A stretch of DNA of 40,921 nt from Deltaproteobacteria bacterium (GTDB lineage: Bacteria > Myxococcota_A > Polyangia > Haliangiales > Haliangiaceae). This document shows positions 2,667 through 16,917 of the stretch, piece by piece. Both the position numbers and the translations under genes were made by a program. Each line of letters begins with the position of its first letter. The stretch's first letter is position 1. The stretch is taken from the NCBI GenBank assembly GCA_005887925.1, contig VBLP01000157.1, positions 5,048 through 45,968 of the forward strand, in the 5' to 3' direction. The notes under the pieces were generated by a model. It was not told the origin of the DNA and made no database searches. It was given only the letters and a program-made list of their open reading frames with translations.

Positions 2667-4538
2667 TCAACGCGTGTCCAGGCGTTTCACGGCGCCACGA
2701 GAACGTAGGACGAGATCCGGCAGGAACCGCGGTTGGGACGGTACTGCCCACCGAGCGTCGTCGGGCTTGCGCGATGACAGTGCAGGCCGGTGCACGGGCC
2801 GGAAGGGGTTCGTACGGACGCGAAACAAGGCTCCGGAGCTGCCGATCTCGTCTCCCAGCTTCATTCGAGGGTACTTGTTCTTCGCACCCTCGAGGTGACT
2901 CGCCCAGAGGGCGCAATCGGTCTCTCTGCGCACGATGTCCGGATCGAGACCGAGCACGACGCGATCGTACTCGATCGCGCTGGCCAGCACCCTGCGTCGC
3001 TCCTTGTCATCAACGCTCGGCTGGGCAACCCGGCGGACTTCGTCCAGGTATTGCTCTGCCTGTGGATAGCGTTCCTGTGCCCCCGAATCGCATCTGAGCG
3101 AGGTCGCATAGCCCAACATATGCTCGTAGATGGTCAATGATCTGAGCACATATTTTTCTACGGTTCCGTAGTCCATCTCTTCGCGAGATTCCGTGCTGTA
3201 GGCGCACGTGCCCGGCGTTGGCGTGATCGGCAGTGATCGCACATTGATATCCACGTAGCCGTGTCCGGCCCAGTAAGCGACTCGTGCAAACTGCATGGGC
3301 CAGTCGGTGATCGACGCCACATTGAGCTCCCACTGCTCGCCAGCTCCAAATCCGACAGTCGTCGTGGGGTAATGCATGTGGCCGGAGATATAGGTCATGA
3401 AATTCTCGTCGGACATCAAGTCCTTCAAGTTGCTGGCACCGATGACGCTGATGCTTTGCCAGTCATGGTGGCCCATCAAGAAGAACCGCGTGGAGCCGTG
3501 CTCGCGGTGCAGTTCCCTTGCCTTCGCGGCCTGGTGCCGGCTGACCCGTCCACAGACTCCCGGAAACTTGCACTTGTTCAATACCGTGGTCAGTAGCTGC
3601 GAAAATCTCGACGATGGCGGTCTGCCCTCATAGTCGGAGGTGTCCAGAAGAATCGCATGATCGCCGCGAGGCAGCTCCACGTCCTGCAGCAAGTAAGCCT
3701 GCCATGATCGGGAAAACGTATCGGACTTCCGGGTCGCAGACGCACCGACGGCAGCGATCGCTCTGACCGTGAGTGACCGGCCGGCCATGACATACGCACC
3801 TCGCGCATCGAAGACCCAGTAGTCGCCATCGAGGGTCCAGCTCCCCGGGTCCAGCGGATCCCTGGAGAGCCCGGTGCGTCGGTTCAGGTCATCCAGAAAC
3901 ATCCAGACGGCCACGGCCTTCGTCATGGTACCCTGCGCTGCATTGGAGTGCTGCTGCCCGAGGAGTTCGTCCTCCAGCCGTGCAAGCTTCGAGACAAGCA
4001 GTGGGGAGCCCGTGCCAGCGTATTCGCAGGCACCTTGCCAGGTGAAATCTGCGGGGTTCTCGAGGGCATCCGCCGCAAATGTCAGATTCCCCATGTAATA
4101 ACCATCATGGTTGCCGAGGACGCCAAACCACGGAAGCCCCTCCATGGCCCCAAGGAACCGCACCATCTCGCCGGTGCACGACGTGTTGGCAGCGTCGCCA
4201 AGGAAGAACACAGGCAGCGGCGTTTCTTTCATGTGCTGCACCACGGCGCTCAACAGGTGCCCGGACCACAGGTCCACCGTGGGTGGACGGATCGCATGCA
4301 CGGCACGGTCGTCCAGCATCTTGGTCCTGGATCGTGTCGAGGCTCCGGCCACGTTGTTCAGCTGAGGGTCGGCAAACACCCAGAACGCTTCCGGGCTCTC
4401 GGTGTGACTCTCCGCCGGGGCGCGCGGCGGCCGGATCGCAGGCCTCGGCGGCGACAAGCAGGCGCCGTAGCTGATCACCAGCGCGATGGCAGCGGATGCC
4501 CGCAACCAGACGACCGAGCGCCCTCCGGGAGCGCGCAT
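2667..4538 (-). CDS. Calcineurin-like metallophosphoesterase, predicted lipoprotein
   Basis: The 623-residue protein begins with a lipoprotein signal peptide: a basic start, a hydrophobic stretch and SYGAC, with the lipidated Cys at residue 27. The calcineurin-like metal motifs are complete: D57-P-Q59, G114-D-A-A-N118, G142-N-H-D145, GHHD near 356-359 and GHMH near 386-389. It should be an envelope-anchored, two-metal phosphoesterase, substrate unknown. The last 200 residues follow the catalytic domain and I do not recognise them. Its start ATG overlaps the stop of the upstream gene by one base (TGATG at 4540-4536), so the two are probably translated together. The length is well above a minimal phosphatase because of insertions between motifs. 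Confidence 0.85.
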   Translation of the reverse strand: MRAPGGRSVVWLRASAAIALVISYGACLSPPRPAIRPPRAPAESHTESPEAFWVFADPQLNNVAGASTRSRTKMLDDRAVHAIRPPTVDLWSGHLLSAVVQHMKETPLPVFFLGDAANTSCTGEMVRFLGAMEGLPWFGVLGNHDGYYMGNLTFAADALENPADFTWQGACEYAGTGSPLLVSKLARLEDELLGQQHSNAAQGTMTKAVAVWMFLDDLNRRTGLSRDPLDPGSWTLDGDYWVFDARGAYVMAGRSLTVRAIAAVGASATRKSDTFSRSWQAYLLQDVELPRGDHAILLDTSDYEGRPPSSRFSQLLTTVLNKCKFPGVCGRVSRHQAAKARELHREHGSTRFFLMGHHDWQSISVIGASNLKDLMSDENFMTYISGHMHYPTTTVGFGAGEQWELNVASITDWPMQFARVAYWAGHGYVDINVRSLPITPTPGTCAYSTESREEMDYGTVEKYVLRSLTIYEHMLGYATSLRCDSGAQERYPQAEQYLDEVRRVAQPSVDDKERRRVLASAIEYDRVVLGLDPDIVRRETDCALWASHLEGAKNKYPRMKLGDEIGSSGALFRVRTNPFRPVHRPALSSRKPDDARWAVPSQPRFLPDLVLRSRGAVKRLDTR

Positions 4539-5773: not shown

Positions 5774-5967
5774 CTCGCGCGTCGTGACCGATCAGCAAGC
5801 CGGATGCCGTCGCCTGCGTGGCGCCGCGGCGCTGCAACCTCGCGTCATCTCGAGGCGAATCGCGACGCGCGGCGACCGGCAGTCCGGTTCTCCGCACGTG
5901 GCTGGGCCGAAAGTCAGGGAAACCGGACGGTCGAGGAGCGAAGCGGCTTGCCTGGCCGCGGCGATCC

Positions 5968-7428
5968 ATGTCCAGATCGTTCGGCGCCTCGAACATGCCC
6001 GCGTCCTCCGATGCAGAGACTTGTGCCGTCGAGCGCGATTTCTATCGGCGCCTGCTCGATCTGGGGGGGCAGAGCGAGATCGAGCCGCTGCTCGATCAGG
6101 CGCTCGCCCTGATCGCGGAGGTCACGCAAGCGTCGACCGCGTACCTCGAGCTCCACGATGACGAGCTGGCGCCGCGGTTCTGGCGGGGTCACGGTTGCTC
6201 GGCCGACGATGTCGCATCGATCCGCGAATCGATCTCCGGCGGGATCATCGCCCGGGCGATCGCGGATGGCCGGACCGTGGAGACCCCGTCTGCGCTCGGT
6301 GATCCGAGGTTCGAGAGCATGACCAGCGTCCAGACCCACGAGATCGAGGCCGTGCTGTGCGCGCCCGTGGGCGTGCCGCCGATCGGCGTCATCTACTTGC
6401 AGGGACGCACCGGCGGCGATAGCTTCACAGCCGTCGATCGCGAGCGGCTGGAGCTGTTCGCCCGCCAGCTCGCGCCGATCGCCGATCGGCTCGTGGCGCT
6501 GGGGCCGGGCCGCGAGCGGATCGATCACACGCGCGCAATTCGCCAGCGGTTTCGCTGCGACGAGCTGGTCGGGCGGTCCGAGGCGCTGGCACGCGTGCTG
6601 ACCGAGGCATCGCACGTCGCACCGCTGGAGATCAGCGTGCTGATCACCGGTCCGACGGGCACGGGCAAGTCGGTCCTGGCACGCGCGATCGCAGCCAACA
6701 GCAAGCGCGCACAGCAGCCGTTCGTCGCGATCAGCTGCGCCGCGATTCCGGAGGCGCTGATCGAGAGCGAGCTGTTCGGCGCCGAGCGCGGCGCGCACTC
6801 CACCGCGACGCATCGCATGTCCGGCAAGATCGCGGCGGCCGCCGGCGGAACGCTGTTTCTCGACGAGGTGGCGGAGCTGTCGAGCGGTGCGCAGTCCAAG
6901 CTGCTCCAGCTCCTGCAGGAACGGCAGTACTACCCGCTCGGCGCGAGCACGCCCGTCGCAGCCGACGTGCGCATCATCAGCGCCACGAACGAGGACCTCA
7001 AGGCACGGGTGACCAGGCGCCAGTTTCGCGAGGATCTGTATTACCGCCTCCACGTGTTGCCGATCGAGATGCCGGGGATCGCCGAGCGGAGAGACGACAT
7101 CCCGGAGCTCGTGGAACACTTCTGTTCCGCGGCATGCCAGCGGCACGGGCTGCGTCTGTTGCGGATCGCGCGGCGCACGCTGCAGGCCTGCCGGGACGCG
7201 GCGTGGCCGGGGCACCTCCGTGAGCTGGCCAACGCGATCGAAGCCGGGGTCGTACGGGCGCAGATCGATGACTCCGAGACCTTGCTCGAGCACCACGTCT
7301 TCCCCAGAGCTTCGAAGACCGCAGACGACCTGATGACCCTGCACGAGGCGACCCGACAGTTCCGGCGGCGCTATGTCCGGGATGCGCTGATCCACGACTT
7401 CGGTCTGCGGCGCGACGACGAGCGTTGA
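5968..7428 (+). CDS. GAF-AAA+ enhancer-binding-type regulator lacking GAFTGA and most of its HTH
   Basis: Counting from the ATG at 5968 (ATG 5995 is an alternative), the protein has 486 residues. It carries a GAF sensor (about 25-180) and a sigma-54-activator-type AAA+ domain: Walker A GPTGTGKS at 228-235, Walker B FLDE at 297-300 and REDLYYRL at 354-361. The loop that should read GAFTGA and touch sigma-54 reads GAHSTA (275-280). The usual C-terminal Fis-type helix-turn-helix is nearly absent. The conserved helix before it (FRRRYVRDAL) runs straight into the residues that normally follow the recognition helix (IHDFGLRR), so about 24 codons are missing in frame. As written, the product could bind ATP and signal through GAF but probably cannot bind DNA. 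The divergent envelope gene may be its former target. Confidence 0.85.
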   Translation: MSRSFGASNMPASSDAETCAVERDFYRRLLDLGGQSEIEPLLDQALALIAEVTQASTAYLELHDDELAPRFWRGHGCSADDVASIRESISGGIIARAIADGRTVETPSALGDPRFESMTSVQTHEIEAVLCAPVGVPPIGVIYLQGRTGGDSFTAVDRERLELFARQLAPIADRLVALGPGRERIDHTRAIRQRFRCDELVGRSEALARVLTEASHVAPLEISVLITGPTGTGKSVLARAIAANSKRAQQPFVAISCAAIPEALIESELFGAERGAHSTATHRMSGKIAAAAGGTLFLDEVAELSSGAQSKLLQLLQERQYYPLGASTPVAADVRIISATNEDLKARVTRRQFREDLYYRLHVLPIEMPGIAERRDDIPELVEHFCSAACQRHGLRLLRIARRTLQACRDAAWPGHLRELANAIEAGVVRAQIDDSETLLEHHVFPRASKTADDLMTLHEATRQFRRRYVRDALIHDFGLRRDDER

Positions 7429-7655: not shown

Positions 7656-8168
7656 ATGATGAGAGTTGAATTTGACGGGATCTGGGATGTTGTCACGGAG
7701 GCCACGAATCAGGCCAATCTGCTTCTGGCAAAGGCGGAGTTCTACGAACGGATCCGCACTTGTCCGCGTTTCGAGCTCACGAAAGCCTCGCCGCGTGACA
7801 TCGCAGACCTCATGGAGCGATGCACGGCGCGCCTGACCGTCCGGCTGTACAAGAGCCGCTGGCCATGGTCCCGCGCGTTCGGGTACGAGGACGCGAGATT
7901 CCCCGATATGGTCTTCCTCAACACCCGCAAGCTCGATCGCAGCATGGCCAGCATCGTCGGCACCATCATCCACGAATCGGTTCATGCCGCAGACGCACAC
8001 AGTCCCCTGGACTTCGGCCACGGCAGCAACTCGTCCGCGGACAAGGAGAACACGGCCCCCTACTGGATCGGGAACCTGGCGATCAGCATGGTGAGCGATC
8101 AGCCGTTTGCCGCCGTCGACCATGCAGCAATCGATGTGCTCGACGACCCGGCGGAGGCAGTGGCCTGA
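7656..8168 (+). CDS. Small protein with HExxH zinc-peptidase motif
   Basis: The 170-residue protein has no signal peptide or membrane helix. Its centre carries IIHESVHAAD (H106, E107, H110), the HExxH motif of zincin metallopeptidases, with D113 three residues on and H122 in the following DFGHG. Either D113 or H122 could be the third metal ligand. The N-terminal 100 residues are helical and would pack around such a site. I cannot place it in a named peptidase family. Proteins of this size with HExxH also occur as anti-phage effectors and as proteins that are metal-binding only. It is transcribed towards the kinase-STAND fusion and ends 61 bases from that gene's end, so the two are neighbours but not an operon. 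Cytoplasmic action is inferred from the lack of a signal. Confidence 0.6.
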   Translation: MMRVEFDGIWDVVTEATNQANLLLAKAEFYERIRTCPRFELTKASPRDIADLMERCTARLTVRLYKSRWPWSRAFGYEDARFPDMVFLNTRKLDRSMASIVGTIIHESVHAADAHSPLDFGHGSNSSADKENTAPYWIGNLAISMVSDQPFAAVDHAAIDVLDDPAEAVA

Positions 8169-8229: not shown

Positions 8230-11200
8230 CTACGGCGACTCGGTAACCCACCGGTCGGTGATCTCGATCTCCGCGGCGATCGGAGAGCGCAGGATGCCGT
8301 CCTTGATCTCGTGGGGGCTCGCGCGTTCTCCTATCGGCCGCCGATCGCACGAGTCGTCGTCGAGGCCGAGCGCAGCGCGCTGGCGCTGCCGCGGCGCCTC
8401 CGGAAGACCCTGCGCCTTGCCGAGGGCTGCGAGGCGCGGTGCGAGGGCAGGATCGAGGACGGCGTCGAGGAACCGGCACAGGCGCGCGGGGATCGGCTGG
8501 TCGCGTGCCACGGCGAGATACAGCCAGAGCACCTTGCGGCCGTCGAGACGCTTGCCGTGTTCGCTATCGATCGTGACGAGTGGGACCACCTGATCGGTCG
8601 AGAACGACCGGGTCGATAGCGCCAGGACATCGGGATCGGTCGCGCGCCGGGTGAGGACCTCGTCCGCGGATATGTCGGCTGCGCGATCGGAAGGGCAGAG
8701 TTGCCGCGGAGCGCAGAGCCATACATCGGCCTGAAGGATTGTCGAGGACGTCGAATCGTTCGGCAGCGGTGGCGCTGTCCGCCCGAAGACCGTCCAGCCG
8801 ACGTTCCGTCCGGCGAACGGCGGCGTCGAGAGCCCGAGGTCTGCCCATATCGTCGGCGCCAGCACCTGGCCGCGACCGCAGCACAGGTGGGCACGGATCG
8901 CTGCGAGATCGATCCGGCGTAGCGGGTTCTCGCGCCGGACGAACAGCGCCGTCTCGTCGAACCCGACCGGCACCTCCACCATGACCTTGCCCGCCGCGCG
9001 AAGATCCTCTGGGGTCTTCTGTTCGAAGCGTACCGAAACCGCGGCGAAGTCGAACTCCGCGGCGCGGAGGCTGCGTATCGCACCCCCGGAGCCCACATCC
9101 TGGATCGACTCGAGTGGGATCGAGGTGGAGCTCCGTTCCTCCAGAAAGGTGCGTACCGGCGCGAGGAAGCCAAACAGCACCGTTCCGCTGCCGCCGACCA
9201 TGACCCGAGGCGGCTGGCGCAGGAGCGGCCTGACTCCGAACAAGGCGGCTCCCAGGATGAGCGCGAACAACGCCACAAACCATGCGATGCGCCGCCGAAT
9301 ATCGTGCGTGGGACCGGTCGGGGCGACCTCGGCCGGCTCCTCGATGAGCGCCGCGCCGCCGCTGCGTTCGTAGTGTGCCCGGGTCAAGCGTGCCTCATCG
9401 GCGGCCAGCGCGTCGTAGAGGACCGAGCACGCGCGCCGGAGGTGCGGCGGATAGACGCCGCGGCCTGGCCCGGCGTCGGGCTCACGAGCAGCCGCCCGCT
9501 CGAGGTCGTCCAGCAGCAGGGTCACGAGATCCTCGTCGATCGTCAGCCGGAGCTCGGAGAGCAGGCCGACGATCGCCTCGCGCGCGCCGTCCCGGGTGAG
9601 CAGGCCAAGCGTCACGACGAAGGCCTCCGCCCCGCCGACGCTCAGCACCGTGGGGCTCGGCGTGCGGACGGACGTGATCACGGTGACATCTGCGTCCGCA
9701 GGCCAGCGCTCGGGAGCGAACACGTCGCGGACGATCTCGTCGAGTCCGCGCTGACCATCGGGCAGCAGCCCCTCGAGCTGATCGAGGACGAGGATCAGCT
9801 TTCCCGCAGCGCGTGCTTGCCAGCGCTCTATGGCACCGGCGACATCGGGCGCGGCGGGATCGATCCCGTGCGCGAGCGCCGCAGCCGCGACCGCTGTCGC
9901 ACCGGGGCGGCAGGCAGCGTAGACCACGCGTGCGCCGAGCGCGTCGAGGTGCGGGATGACGCCGCGGCGCAGGAGCGTCGTCTTGCCGATGCCCGCGGGC
10001 CCTGCGAGCACGACGGTGCGGCGGTACAAGACGTGATCGGCGAGCGACTCGACCTCACGGTCGCGGCCATAGAGCTCCACGGCGGTGCCGAAGCGCTCGG
10101 CAGGCTCCAGCGCGAGCGCGCGGCGCAGTACCTCGCGCAGCCGAGGCTCTGCGATCTCGTCGAGCGGCGGGACGAGCATGTCACGCGAGCGCCGCCGCCA
10201 TCCGGTCAGCAGCGTGACGAGGACGAGCGCCACCGCGAACAGGTCGGAGCGCGCATCGACCCGCCCGTTGTGGAGCTGCTCGGGTGCCATGTACGCTGGC
10301 GTGCCACCGACAGAGCGCGTCGGATGATCCGGCGCGCGAAGACGCGACAGACCGAAATCGACGAGGACGACCCGCTCGCCCGCTCGCGCAGGAGCGAGCA
10401 GCACGTTCGCGGGCTTGATGTCAGCGTGGATGAGCCCGGCTTCGTGCGCCGCTCCGAGACCGGCGAGGAGCTGGCCGACGAGCATGCGCGCGCGGTCCAC
10501 CTCCAGGCGTCCTTCCACCTGGATCACCTGCTCCAGGTCGCGGCCGTCCAGCAGCTCCATCGCAAAGAACAAGCGGCCATCGGGCGTGACGTCGGCCTGA
10601 TAGATCCGCACCACGTTCGGGTGATCGATGCGCCCGACGCTCTGGATCTCGTGCACGAACAGGCGGCCGCCGGGCGACGATGGGTCGACGTCGGCGTGCA
10701 GGATCTTGACCGCGACATCGCGTTCGACACTCAGCTGGCGCGCTCGATACACGGTGCCGAACCCGCCGCGCGCGATCAAGCCGTCGATCCGGAAGCGCCC
10801 CGGCAGGATCGCGCCGACGAGCACGTCCGGTTCGGCACTCCCGTGCGCTGGAGGCGGGGCGCGACGCGGACGGCGCGTCAGTCGCGGATCCCATCTACTC
10901 GTCAGCGGTGGTGGTGTAGCGAGGGTGTCGGCGAGCGCCGGGGACAGGAGCGCGAGCCCCGGAACCTCTCGCGCGAGGTAGCCGCCGAGACTCCGGAAGG
11001 TGATCGTGCCAGTGCGCTCGTCGACGGCATCGCCGGCAAAACCATCGCGCAACGTCTCGATCATGCGCACCGCTCGCAGTCCCGCACCGACGGCGATGAG
11101 GTCCTCGGGTCGCGTCGTCGCGAGCGCGGCCAGCCAGACTTGCTCCAGCCGGTCCATGTCGTCGGCACTCGTCGCGGGATCGCTCCAGCCGGCGAGCACA

Positions 11201-11610
11201 AAGACGACACGCGCCGCCCCGGACGCACGGAGGCGAGATCCGATCATGGCCAGAGGTAGCGATCCGGCGACTCCCGCGTGCTCCGGCTCCGGCGCGGTCA
11301 TGAACGCGGGCTCGCCGTCAGAGCGAATCACCCCTCCCATCGCGACCACGAGCGCAACGTTCACCTCGAGCGTGCTCAGCGACGTCAGCTCGCGCTCCAG
11401 GTTGGTGTACCCCGGGAGCTGATCTGGCCGATCGCCGGGTGCGAGCCGGGTGACGCGCCACGCGGGGTTGGCGGCAAGCAGCGCTTCGCCGATCTGCCCG
11501 AGTGTTTGGACCAGCGAAGCATGCTGCGCCGGCTCGTCCACCGTATGGCCTGCGATGAGGAGAGCGGTGTTGCTTGGCGAAGGTGCGTCCATGGGGGATG
11601 GACCGGTCAT
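8230..11610 (-). CDS. Fusion: caspase-like domain, Ser/Thr kinase, STAND-type NTPase, membrane helix, PstS-like domain
   Basis: The 1126-residue protein has five parts. Residues 14-215 have the strand/helix order of a caspase-like (C14) fold, but the positions expected for His and Cys read VVAMGG and VFVLAG, so it is probably inactive. Residues 270-510 are a protein kinase: G-loop IARGGFGTVY, K302, HADIKPAN at 395-402 (Ala replaces the usual Arg of HRD), DFG at 418-420 and APE. Residues 514-750 are a STAND-like NTPase, with Walker A GPAGIGKTT at 537-545 and Walker B LILVLDQ ending at 611. One membrane helix lies at about 775-794. Residues 802-1070 resemble a phosphate-type periplasmic binding protein (GSGT and GSGGAIRSL). 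I infer a membrane sensor that reads an external ligand and signals through kinase and NTPase. It stands alone, and no substrate gene is evident. Confidence 0.8.
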   Translation of the reverse strand: MTGPSPMDAPSPSNTALLIAGHTVDEPAQHASLVQTLGQIGEALLAANPAWRVTRLAPGDRPDQLPGYTNLERELTSLSTLEVNVALVVAMGGVIRSDGEPAFMTAPEPEHAGVAGSLPLAMIGSRLRASGAARVVFVLAGWSDPATSADDMDRLEQVWLAALATTRPEDLIAVGAGLRAVRMIETLRDGFAGDAVDERTGTITFRSLGGYLAREVPGLALLSPALADTLATPPPLTSRWDPRLTRRPRRAPPPAHGSAEPDVLVGAILPGRFRIDGLIARGGFGTVYRARQLSVERDVAVKILHADVDPSSPGGRLFVHEIQSVGRIDHPNVVRIYQADVTPDGRLFFAMELLDGRDLEQVIQVEGRLEVDRARMLVGQLLAGLGAAHEAGLIHADIKPANVLLAPARAGERVVLVDFGLSRLRAPDHPTRSVGGTPAYMAPEQLHNGRVDARSDLFAVALVLVTLLTGWRRRSRDMLVPPLDEIAEPRLREVLRRALALEPAERFGTAVELYGRDREVESLADHVLYRRTVVLAGPAGIGKTTLLRRGVIPHLDALGARVVYAACRPGATAVAAAALAHGIDPAAPDVAGAIERWQARAAGKLILVLDQLEGLLPDGQRGLDEIVRDVFAPERWPADADVTVITSVRTPSPTVLSVGGAEAFVVTLGLLTRDGAREAIVGLLSELRLTIDEDLVTLLLDDLERAAAREPDAGPGRGVYPPHLRRACSVLYDALAADEARLTRAHYERSGGAALIEEPAEVAPTGPTHDIRRRIAWFVALFALILGAALFGVRPLLRQPPRVMVGGSGTVLFGFLAPVRTFLEERSSTSIPLESIQDVGSGGAIRSLRAAEFDFAAVSVRFEQKTPEDLRAAGKVMVEVPVGFDETALFVRRENPLRRIDLAAIRAHLCCGRGQVLAPTIWADLGLSTPPFAGRNVGWTVFGRTAPPLPNDSTSSTILQADVWLCAPRQLCPSDRAADISADEVLTRRATDPDVLALSTRSFSTDQVVPLVTIDSEHGKRLDGRKVLWLYLAVARDQPIPARLCRFLDAVLDPALAPRLAALGKAQGLPEAPRQRQRAALGLDDDSCDRRPIGERASPHEIKDGILRSPIAAEIEITDRWVTESP

Positions 11611-13348: not shown

Positions 13349-13760
13349 ATGACCTTCCAGAAGATCCTGTGCCCCATCGACTTCTCCGAGGACTCGCAGC
13401 AGGCGCTGCAGGTCGCAGCCGAGACCGCAGCAATGGATGACGGACTACGGGATGCAGTGGCCCAACGAGGTGCTGCTGGAGGCCCAGGCGCTCGAGGAGG
13501 GCAAGCTCGCGACGTATCGCACGGACGCCCAGCGCCTCGGCGCGCCCGAGGTCGTGACAAAGCTGCTGCGCGGTGAGCCATGGGACCAGATCGTGTCGGT
13601 GGCCCGCGAGGACCCGGGGATCGACCTGATCGTCATGGGCACCCACGGCCGCACCGGCCTCCGGCGCGCCCTGATCGGCTCGGTCGCCGAGCGGGTCGTG
13701 CGCCACGCGCCCTGCACCGTGATGGTCGTCCGGGCGCCGCAGGCAAAGCAGCCGGCGTAG
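13349..13760 (+). pseudogene. Broken universal stress protein gene (UspA family)
   Basis: The first part, from ATG 13349, encodes MTFQKILCPIDFSEDSQQAL, the typical UspA start with the first strand and helix. The rest is in another frame (about 13437-13760): DYGMQWPNEVLLEAQ, then the ATP-site region LIVMGTHGRTGLRR and SVAERVVRHAPCTVMVVR. Between them the expected second strand (LVLVHV-type) is missing, so the lesion is a deletion of roughly 50-60 bases that also shifts the frame near 13425-13440. An intact protein of about 140-150 residues would bind ATP through G-x2-G-x9-G(S/T), and that half is still readable. Either decay or a sequencing deletion explains it. Confidence 0.8.
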
Positions 13761-15837: not shown

Positions 15838-16917
15838 TCAAGAGTCGCTGAGGTAGAACGCGTGTAGATGACCGTCGCCGTCGACTGTCATCGGGTTCAC
15901 CTGCACGTCGTCGCCGGTCACGGTGAATACCGTGAACGTGTTGCCGTCGTGCTCGACCATGCGCTGACTTCGATCGCGAACCAGCTCGAAGCGGCCGCCG
16001 TTGGGCATCGTGCAGCTGAGCGTCCCGTGCTCTCCATGACCCTCGCAGGCGGCGCGCCGCTGCGCCGCCTTGGACGGCGAGAAGACATAGAAGCCCGACG
16101 CACAGCCCACGGTCACCTGGCGCAGCGAGTCACCCGAGGGCAGCGAGAAGGTCTCGTCCCACGTGACGTGCTCGTGACCGGCCACGTAGAAGTCCGCATG
16201 GCCGTGATCGAGGATCGGGCCGAACCGGTCGACGAACTGCCGGGCCGGGCGGCGGATCACCGAGAACAGCGGGACATGGCCGAACACGAAGCGAAGCCGT
16301 GCGTTCGCGGCGGCCGCGAGATCGTCGGTCAACCAGTCTGCAACGTCGCGATCGATCGCCTGGTCGACGACATGTGCGAGAGCGAAGTGCACGCCGTCGA
16401 CGTCGAGGCTGTAGCTGTACGGGGTCCGCGCCTCCCCGAGCCCGGTGCCGGCGTTGAGCTTGAACGGCGCCGCCCAGCGCTCGAGGTCGGCGAACGCTTG
16501 CTGGTAGCCCTCGCGCTGCCAGCTCAGGTACGTGTCGTGATTGCCGGCGATCGGCAGGACCGCGATCCCGGCGTCGTGCAGCGGCTCGAGCGCATCGGTG
16601 ACGCGAGCCCACCACGCCTTGACCCGACCGCGTCGGTGATCCACCCTGGCCGACCCGCTGTTGGGAAGGTGCAGGTCGGACAGCACGGCGAAGCTCCACT
16701 GCTGCGGCGTGCCGGAACCGACGATCAGACTCGAGAGCGGCTCGCGCGCCGAGCACGTCGTCCCGACCGGCTCGATCGTCAACAGCGCCTGGTCGTCGTC
16801 GGCGTCGCCCGCGTCGCCGGTGTCGGCGGTGTCGGCGGTGTCGATCGGCGCGTAGGCGCACCCCGAGCTCGACGCGATGCGTAGCGCACCAAGGACGAGT
16901 ACTGCAGCCAGCCGCAT
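15838..16917 (-). CDS. Metallophosphoesterase lipoprotein missing one metal motif
   Basis: The 359-residue product has a lipoprotein signal (SSSGC, Cys20) and an Asp/Thr/Ala-rich linker with repeated DTADT/DAGDAD. Calcineurin-like motifs visible are SDLH at 80-83, GNHD at 125-128, GHVP at 213-216 and GHEH at 247-250. The GDxx(D/N) motif that should lie between the first two is absent. SDLH and GNHD are only 42 residues apart, and the sequence passes from LPNSGSARVD directly to RRGRVKAWW. The bridging metal ligand Asp is therefore missing, and activity as written is doubtful. An in-frame loss of about 30 codons is the simplest explanation. Part of this gene is repeated at 11971-12014. Confidence 0.8.
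   Translation of the reverse strand: MRLAAVLVLGALRIASSSGCAYAPIDTADTADTGDAGDADDDQALLTIEPVGTTCSAREPLSSLIVGSGTPQQWSFAVLSDLHLPNSGSARVDHRRGRVKAWWARVTDALEPLHDAGIAVLPIAGNHDTYLSWQREGYQQAFADLERWAAPFKLNAGTGLGEARTPYSYSLDVDGVHFALAHVVDQAIDRDVADWLTDDLAAAANARLRFVFGHVPLFSVIRRPARQFVDRFGPILDHGHADFYVAGHEHVTWDETFSLPSGDSLRQVTVGCASGFYVFSPSKAAQRRAACEGHGEHGTLSCTMPNGGRFELVRDRSQRMVEHDGNTFTVFTVTGDDVQVNPMTVDGDGHLHAFYLSDS

Follow-up and report, generated by a model that had tools for sequence, protein, structure and literature searches.

A 40,921-nucleotide stretch of DNA (hereafter, the window) from a member of the Haliangiaceae (Deltaproteobacteria bacterium, Myxococcota_A; GenBank assembly GCA_005887925.1, contig VBLP01000157.1, positions 5,048 to 45,968) contains a gene for a large putative receptor kinase and, close to it, a gene for an AAA+ transcription activator, referred to here as the receptor and its partner. 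The source genome amounts to 12.2 Mb in 778 contigs (81% complete, 3.4% contaminated), and the window lies inside a contig of 57.6 kb. Myxobacteria encode Ser/Thr kinases in large numbers, most of them with neither a known input nor a known output. The receptor gene and the parts of its product are as follows.

8230..11610, minus strand: receptor gene, 1126 amino acids, an open frame with coding-like base composition along its whole length
10939..11571, minus strand: inactive caspase-fold domain, approximately residues 14-224 (linked by a profile to Peptidase_C14 proteins; AlphaFold model with its PDB matches)
10066..10815, minus strand: Ser/Thr protein kinase domain, approximately residues 266-515 (Pfam Pkinase at 277-470; HADIKP and DFG present)
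9352..10071, minus strand: nSTAND1 NTPase part, residues 514-753 (Pfam; Walker A GPAGIGKT, Walker B ILVLDQLE)
9232..9288, minus strand: single membrane helix, residues 775-793 (hydropathy 2.54)
8371..9219, minus strand: PstS-like (PBP_like_2) domain, approximately residues 798-1080, with six Cys (Pfam at 802-906; alignment with PstS-like proteins; weak model)

The receptor frame runs through 1126 codons with zero internal stops. When guanine-plus-cytosine content was calculated by codon position in 75-codon steps, position 2 was lowest in all 15 full steps, those of the C-terminal part included, and position 3 was highest in 13 of the 15, with the frame constant throughout; an even pattern of this kind makes a frameshift or a chance frame unlikely. 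The original prediction, based on the letters of the window, had described a caspase-fold domain, a Ser/Thr kinase, an nSTAND1 NTPase, one membrane helix and a PstS-like domain, in this order, as one unbroken chain, and the open frame, the Pfam results, the hydropathy profile and the structure model bear this out. No stop or frameshift divides the chain, and a PstS-like part on this kinase family was found in this genome only. The fragmented, incomplete and partly contaminated state of the assembly, together with the failure to find a second genome with the joint, would suit an artefact in which a kinase-STAND gene from one organism was joined to a PstS-like gene from another. Such an error is highly improbable, however, given that the frame stays open and its base composition even across the joint, inside the 57.6-kb contig, that a membrane helix directly follows the joint and is itself followed by the outer domain, and that the partner gene next door belongs to the same subfamily as the neighbours of related receptors.

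Pfam returned no convincing match for receptor residues 1-255, and no direct caspase match. A profile of this N-terminal domain (N-domain), built from 10 members of the receptor family described below and searched against 377 genomes of the phylum, recovered family members and six weak matches outside the family. Pfam assignment was made for four of these six (L161 and L162 were left out), and all four (L158, L159, L160, and L163) were called Peptidase_C14; a PDB sequence search with the same profile yielded no caspase and nothing credible. The AlphaFold2 model, based on an alignment of 16 family rows, reached a predicted local distance difference test (pLDDT) score of 89.5 and a predicted TM-score (pTM) of 0.87, and all 50 PDB matches listed by Foldseek for this model belong to the caspase clan (MALT1, caspases, metacaspases, and legumains; best E 1.9e-6, query TM-scores of 0.41-0.57 only). 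Alignment with the active-looking L158 and L163 places AMGG of the receptor on the GHG motif and VLAG (VLAGW) on the DAC motif. The catalytic His is gone in 16 of 16 aligned family rows and the catalytic Cys in 15 of 16, with L115 retaining a Cys near the site; a D..TG.(I/V)T..SL stretch is nearly invariant among the family N-domains. Taken together, the profile links, the predicted structure and the motif alignment indicate that the N-domain has a caspase fold, as was originally proposed, and that, judged by its residues, it cannot act as a His/Cys protease.

The Pfam Pkinase match at residues 277-470 lies above the cut-off (E 1.5e-38), and PknB/Stk1-type kinase families ranked first in NCBIfam, below their cut-offs. 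The kinase and Walker motifs noted at the outset are present (HADIKP, DFG, GPAGIGKT, and ILVLDQLE), and the kinase is probably active, as far as its motifs tell. The HAD in place of HRD, which had been thought to suggest altered kinase regulation, is not special to the receptor: the pattern HAD[LIV]KP was found in 17 of 18 tested family or sister kinases and is hence usual in the family. The nSTAND1 match at 514-753 is likewise above the cut-off (E 1.8e-18).

Residues 775-793 form the sole strong hydrophobic segment of the receptor, a weaker one at 77-95 being located within the caspase fold. Two Cys residues precede residue 775 and six follow the membrane helix, a distribution which, with the single helix, would fit a kinase-STAND part in the cytoplasm and a PstS-like part outside. 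Pfam places PBP_like_2 at 802-906 (E 2.1e-7, 31.4 bits versus a cut-off of 27), NCBIfam gives a weak PstS match at 804-906, below its cut-off, and both GSGT and GSGGAIRSL occur in this part, so that the predicted combination of one membrane helix and an outward binding-protein-like domain with these motifs was recovered. The domain is at most 24% identical to 15 PstS-like proteins. In alignment with such proteins, and at positions that we take to be those of the phosphate-binding site, the first lobe keeps the GS.T and GSG loops and an Asp; the second lobe is backed by the alignment and a weak model only. The first 24 PDB matches of this AlphaFold model (pLDDT 60, pTM 0.48) are phosphate-binding proteins, which gives weak support only, as the alignment behind the model consisted of PstS-like proteins and biased the outcome that way.

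Relatives of the receptor were sought in 35 genomes of the order, where the N-domain matched at 14 places in 10 genomes; the N-domain profile adds one further place within the order (L166/L177) and one outside it (L157/L232). Two more family copies (L111 and L117) are in the source genome itself. Each of the 11 full-length relatives submitted to Pfam (L112, L114, L116, L117, L118, L119, L120, L121, L122, L177, and L232) matched Pkinase, nSTAND1 and FGE-sulfatase, with FGE, a C-lectin-fold domain, as the last domain; the incomplete relatives either end at contig ends (L110, L113, and L115) or, in the case of L111, contain a stop and are truncated by a contig end as well. A pseudo-caspase, a kinase, nSTAND1, a membrane helix and an outer sensor are therefore the plan of a family. 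The domain order, put forward as previously unknown, is thus shared by all 11 relatives up to the outer sensor, and the PstS-like ending is found in this copy alone. The search for homologues and their neighbours hence yielded a family of the same order and, as shown below, a conserved activator neighbour.

The FGE-ended receptors (L112, L114, L116-L122, and L177 in the order; L232 outside) have the same parts in the same order to residue 761 of the receptor, but they differ from it in having FGE as the last domain, a full nSTAND1 and a linker between kinase and STAND. For example, the receptor aligns with L112 over residues 6-761, with 77 of 103 residues identical at 257-359 and a highest identity of 59% over 479 columns of kinase and STAND, and shows no homology to it beyond residue 761; 41 residues of the L112 linker are absent from the receptor at 512/513. 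Among the best 80 of 155 public contigs, three match the receptor up to residues 752-756 and none further. The PstS-like query, in turn, had matches in 8 of the 35 order genomes and 25 of the 377 phylum genomes (the source genome included in both), and none of the 31 other matches (24 phylum and 7 order; 30 distinct places, L106 being the same as L136) had a kinase, STAND, FGE or N-domain match; Pfam confirmed four of them (L123-L126) as PBP_like_2 proteins. A tree of kinase and STAND parts (16 rows, leaving out L121, with a catalytic motif off pattern, as well as L111, L115, and L232) resolved neither the position of the receptor nor the direction of exchange. Since all 11 full-length relatives end in FGE, the exchange would have gone from FGE to the PstS-like domain. 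Overall, the receptor seems to belong to a kinase-STAND-FGE family marked by a dead caspase and to have undergone sensor exchange. Five family receptors (L110, L111, L114, L115, and L116) are flanked on their other side by a gene that is 73-80% identical between loci, the L110 copy of which Pfam calls an ABC transporter.

The partner, which the original prediction had missed, is located beside the receptor gene.

5818..7428, plus strand: partner, a GAF-AAA+ activator of enhancer-binding type with a GAHSTA loop (Pfam, subfamily linkage; the true start is perhaps further in)
7387..7392, plus strand: site in the partner gene at which a helix-turn-helix is absent (alignment; approximately 24 residues, in frame)

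Its AAA+ domain matches Pfam Sigma54_activat (E 1.1e-61), and homologues at 58-65% identity adjoin seven receptor relatives. A search with the partner in the 35 genomes found 17 places at ≥55% identity, the window included, in 12 genomes, as well as one partial place; below this subfamily, identity falls to 44, 43 and 40%, and then to about 35%, over full length. Of the 17 places, 15 adjoin a kinase-STAND receptor (the window's included) or an FGE fragment: nine, again with the window, adjoin a pseudo-caspase receptor, two (L176 and L179) adjoin kinase-STAND-FGE proteins in which no caspase domain was detected, and four (L172-L175) adjoin a contig-terminal FGE fragment. The remaining two (L171 and L178) are near contig ends with no receptor in view, and near the partial place (L183) there is only another kinase. 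Two of the distant activators (L181, 43%, and L182, 40%) also adjoin kinase-STAND-FGE proteins; a third (L180, 44%) does not. All 10 genomes with an N-domain match fall within the 12 activator genomes, and STAND, FGE and N-domain matches were absent from all 40 control activator loci. The GAF-AAA+ activator is a dedicated, conserved neighbour of the receptor family.

For L232, the receptor from outside the order, the neighbouring open frame, 26 bases away on the same strand, encodes an FHA-AAA+ activator. FHA-type sigma54 activators of Myxococcus, AAA+ proteins that presumably respond to Ser/Thr kinases, were reportedly treated by Jelsbak in 2005; the window partner differs from them in having GAF and not FHA, and in its GAHSTA loop. 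FHA domains are described, in the part of the source available, as binding phosphothreonine proteins (PMC2875238). At the position of the GAFTGA loop, 13 of 17 aligned activators, including that of the window, have GAHSTA, one has GAHSQA, one GAYTGA and two SAFPGA (the activators named for the GAHSTA observation are those of the window, L112, L114, L116-L119, L121, and L172-L177). Activators without GAFTGA have been reported, in the section of the publication available, to act on sigma70 promoters (PMC10274813). A search for sigma54 -24/-12 promoters in the window gave 30 matches versus 37 expected by chance, and thus no target promoter can be named.

The interpretation towards which we lean is that of an envelope receptor kinase that signals to a dedicated transcription activator, and that has been rewired at this locus by sensor exchange. 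The receptor would be a single-pass kinase in the inner membrane of a myxobacterium, the outer PstS-like domain of which may bind phosphate or some other small anion or solute as its ligand. A ligand-induced change would then travel via the single helix to the kinase-STAND part and control the kinase, and the caspase-fold domain would most likely serve as a docking or dimerising scaffold. As its output, the kinase would most likely phosphorylate the adjacent AAA+ activator or control it in some other way. The linkage of the two genes is observed, and phosphorylation is suggested by the activator being the conserved neighbour and by the phosphothreonine-reading FHA domain in the neighbour of the distant relative. 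At the window locus, a membrane helix and a PstS-like domain would stand in place of the FGE sensor and of the last third of nSTAND1, and the locus thus rewired may use a paralogous activator or dispense with DNA binding.

Several observations weigh against this interpretation. The nSTAND1 match spans only profile positions 17-256 of 379, its C-terminal third being missing, so that the STAND module that had been called is present in its P-loop and Walker B but incomplete as a domain; such shortening suggests that this copy lacks the oligomerisation assumed for full STAND proteins. In the second lobe, the loop that reads RQNNSGT in PstS-like proteins is altered in the receptor, and among the order and phylum genomes searched the kinase-STAND/PstS-like fusion occurs in one genome only. 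About 24 residues of the helix-turn-helix (Fis-type) are absent in frame from the window partner and present in all 16 other aligned activators, which makes a direct path from kinase to DNA doubtful for the window copy and suggests either mixed rings with another subfamily activator of the genome or action without DNA binding. As regards linkage, no subfamily activator was found in the flanks examined of two family receptors (L120 and L122), and a kinase match was present in 17 of 20 (L184-L203) and 11 of 20 (L204-L223) of the control loci, which were chosen from a ranked activator list and are neither random nor phylogenetically independent. A kinase near an activator is thus common in the order, and linkage to just any kinase is weak evidence; the STAND-FGE type of kinase is the specific part. 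The first control group (L184-L203) appears to be one orthologous group, 31-35% identical to the partner, with another kinase, mostly of about 600 amino acids, adjoining 17 of its 20 members, which suggests that kinase-activator pairs are a general theme of the order.

With a truncated nSTAND1 and a changed sensor in the receptor, and a partner lacking its helix-turn-helix, both genes depart from the family pattern. They may do so because the locus is a decaying hybrid, in which an FGE-type receptor was truncated by recombination and fused in frame to a stray PstS-like gene, leaving a product without a selected function and a partner that is decaying too. The loss of both the nSTAND1 end and the 41-residue linker, the partner's missing DNA-binding residues, the divergence of the PstS-like domain with its changed second-lobe loop, and the restriction of the fusion to a single genome are all as decay would have them; moreover, one of the two other subfamily activators in the source genome has an internal stop. 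We nonetheless regard decay as doubtful, as the 3.4-kb receptor frame is coding-like in every step, the kinase and Walker motifs are retained, and the partner frame is open and 56-70% identical to subfamily members.

Beyond the envelope receptor kinase favoured above, a broader proposal can be offered tentatively, as possible and not as probable. There may be a modular class of bacterial receptors in which one chain combines a kinase and a STAND switch with a catalytically dead caspase as scaffold and talks to a dedicated AAA+ activator with GAHSTA in place of the GAFTGA loop; receptor and activator together would be the Ser/Thr-kinase counterpart of a two-component system. The outer sensor of this class would be exchangeable, and here a C-lectin-fold domain would have given way to a binding protein of phosphate type, with the STAND part shortened, turning an envelope receptor into a solute receptor. 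The family is of use in that it offers both ends of a pathway, an outer sensor for ligand tests and a linked activator as a candidate target, and the window receptor is in effect a natural sensor-exchange experiment. The dead caspase inside a signalling chain, seen family-wide, is a bacterial counterpart of pseudo-caspase scaffolds. Since the activators form a conserved subfamily whose sigma54 loop is non-canonical, what they act on can be tested directly. The two-gene receptor-activator module is of broader interest than the receptor alone.

Similar parts recur in other proteins, which raises the question of a conflict (immunity) system as in multicellular bacteria, where caspase, STAND and lectin-fold (FGS) parts would sense invaders and the kinase would be the effector. 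PADLOC models do match the kinase, but the 25 matches listed (of 33 matched families) are all to kinase models; they cover the kinase, in some cases extending into the STAND part, and carry nothing specific for defence. An RVT_1 search for reverse transcriptases gave 12 matches in 7 genomes, none on a receptor-bearing contig, and the Pfam scan of 10 window frames, which presumably included an EACC1 model, gave no EACC1 match. Caspase, STAND, kinase, FGE and PBP parts are all known from immunity systems, according to the portions of two accounts available (PMC7159879, PMC8195603); still, an immune role is unlikely for a family in which the caspase is inactive throughout and which is linked to a transcription activator and not to an effector. 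The EACC1 system resembles the receptor in having a caspase protein with variable tails, including STAND parts and a transmembrane segment with an outer PBP domain. In that system, as described in the available part of the report, the caspase is constant and active and the EACC1 gene adjacent, whereas the receptor has a dead caspase, a kinase and an activator neighbour (PMC7159879). C-lectin-fold proteins of diversity-generating retroelements, to judge from the accessible text on them, resemble the FGE relatives in that a kinase or an orthocaspase is joined to a lectin-fold sensor (PMC7517822). The receptor itself lacks such a part, and the absence of reverse transcriptase matches from the receptor-bearing contigs of the 7 genomes speaks against targets of such retroelements. 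Orthocaspase-FGE fusions (PMC3501461) and inactive orthocaspases (PMC6426788) are also in print, and like the receptor family they comprise a caspase fold, often beside FGE, with inactive variants. The intervening kinase and STAND parts and the PstS-like sensor set the receptor apart, and do not figure in the available parts of those descriptions (PMC3501461, PMC6426788). Caspase-FGE, kinase-lectin and caspase-STAND/PBP pieces are therefore already published; the combination of pseudo-caspase, kinase, STAND and FGE with an activator partner was not found in the open-licence literature searched, as far as its available parts extend, which does not prove its absence from print.

The proposal that an outer ligand domain on a STAND kinase represents a new type of receptor holds insofar as a PstS-like domain lies behind a helix on a kinase-STAND chain; the simpler arrangement of kinase, transmembrane helix and PstS-like domain has counterparts elsewhere in the order. 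A PF12849 search of the 35 genomes gave 58 places, from which the five longest frames besides the receptor (1185, 877, 870, 847, and 771 amino acids) and one of 519 amino acids were examined. Four were given to Pfam, and three of these are kinase-PBP_like_2-OmpA proteins and one is a DUF4388-PBP_like_2-OmpA protein. The former are from three genomes, and in each a single hydrophobic helix separates the kinase from the PBP domain (Pfam, hydropathy).

L225, 1839-4448, minus strand: kinase-transmembrane-PstS-like-OmpA protein
L226, 1593-4223, plus strand: kinase-transmembrane-PstS-like-OmpA protein
L227, 2148-4688, minus strand: kinase-transmembrane-PstS-like-OmpA protein

Like the receptor, these proteins have a Ser/Thr kinase, one membrane helix and then a PstS-like domain, but they have an OmpA end and neither caspase nor STAND, and their PstS-like part is barely similar to that of the receptor (best E 0.003). 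A PstS-like domain on a membrane kinase hence arose at least two times in the order, and the receptor is an independent instance. The OmpA end of the three proteins is a domain of cell-wall-binding type.

Among the other genes of the window, one small protein is encoded between partner and receptor.

7656..8168, plus strand: 170-amino-acid protein with an HESVH (zinc-peptidase-like) motif (frame)

It had no Pfam match, and BLAST matched it at the window's own locus only and at none of the relatives' loci. A fragment of a universal stress protein (Usp) gene is at 13437-13760 on the plus strand and covers profile positions 58-141 of 141 only. Two genes for calcineurin-like phosphoesterases are near the receptor (2667-4538 and 15838-16917, both on the minus strand), the first belonging to a row of two genes that diverges from the activator gene, and a phosphate link of the receptor via these enzymes is possible.

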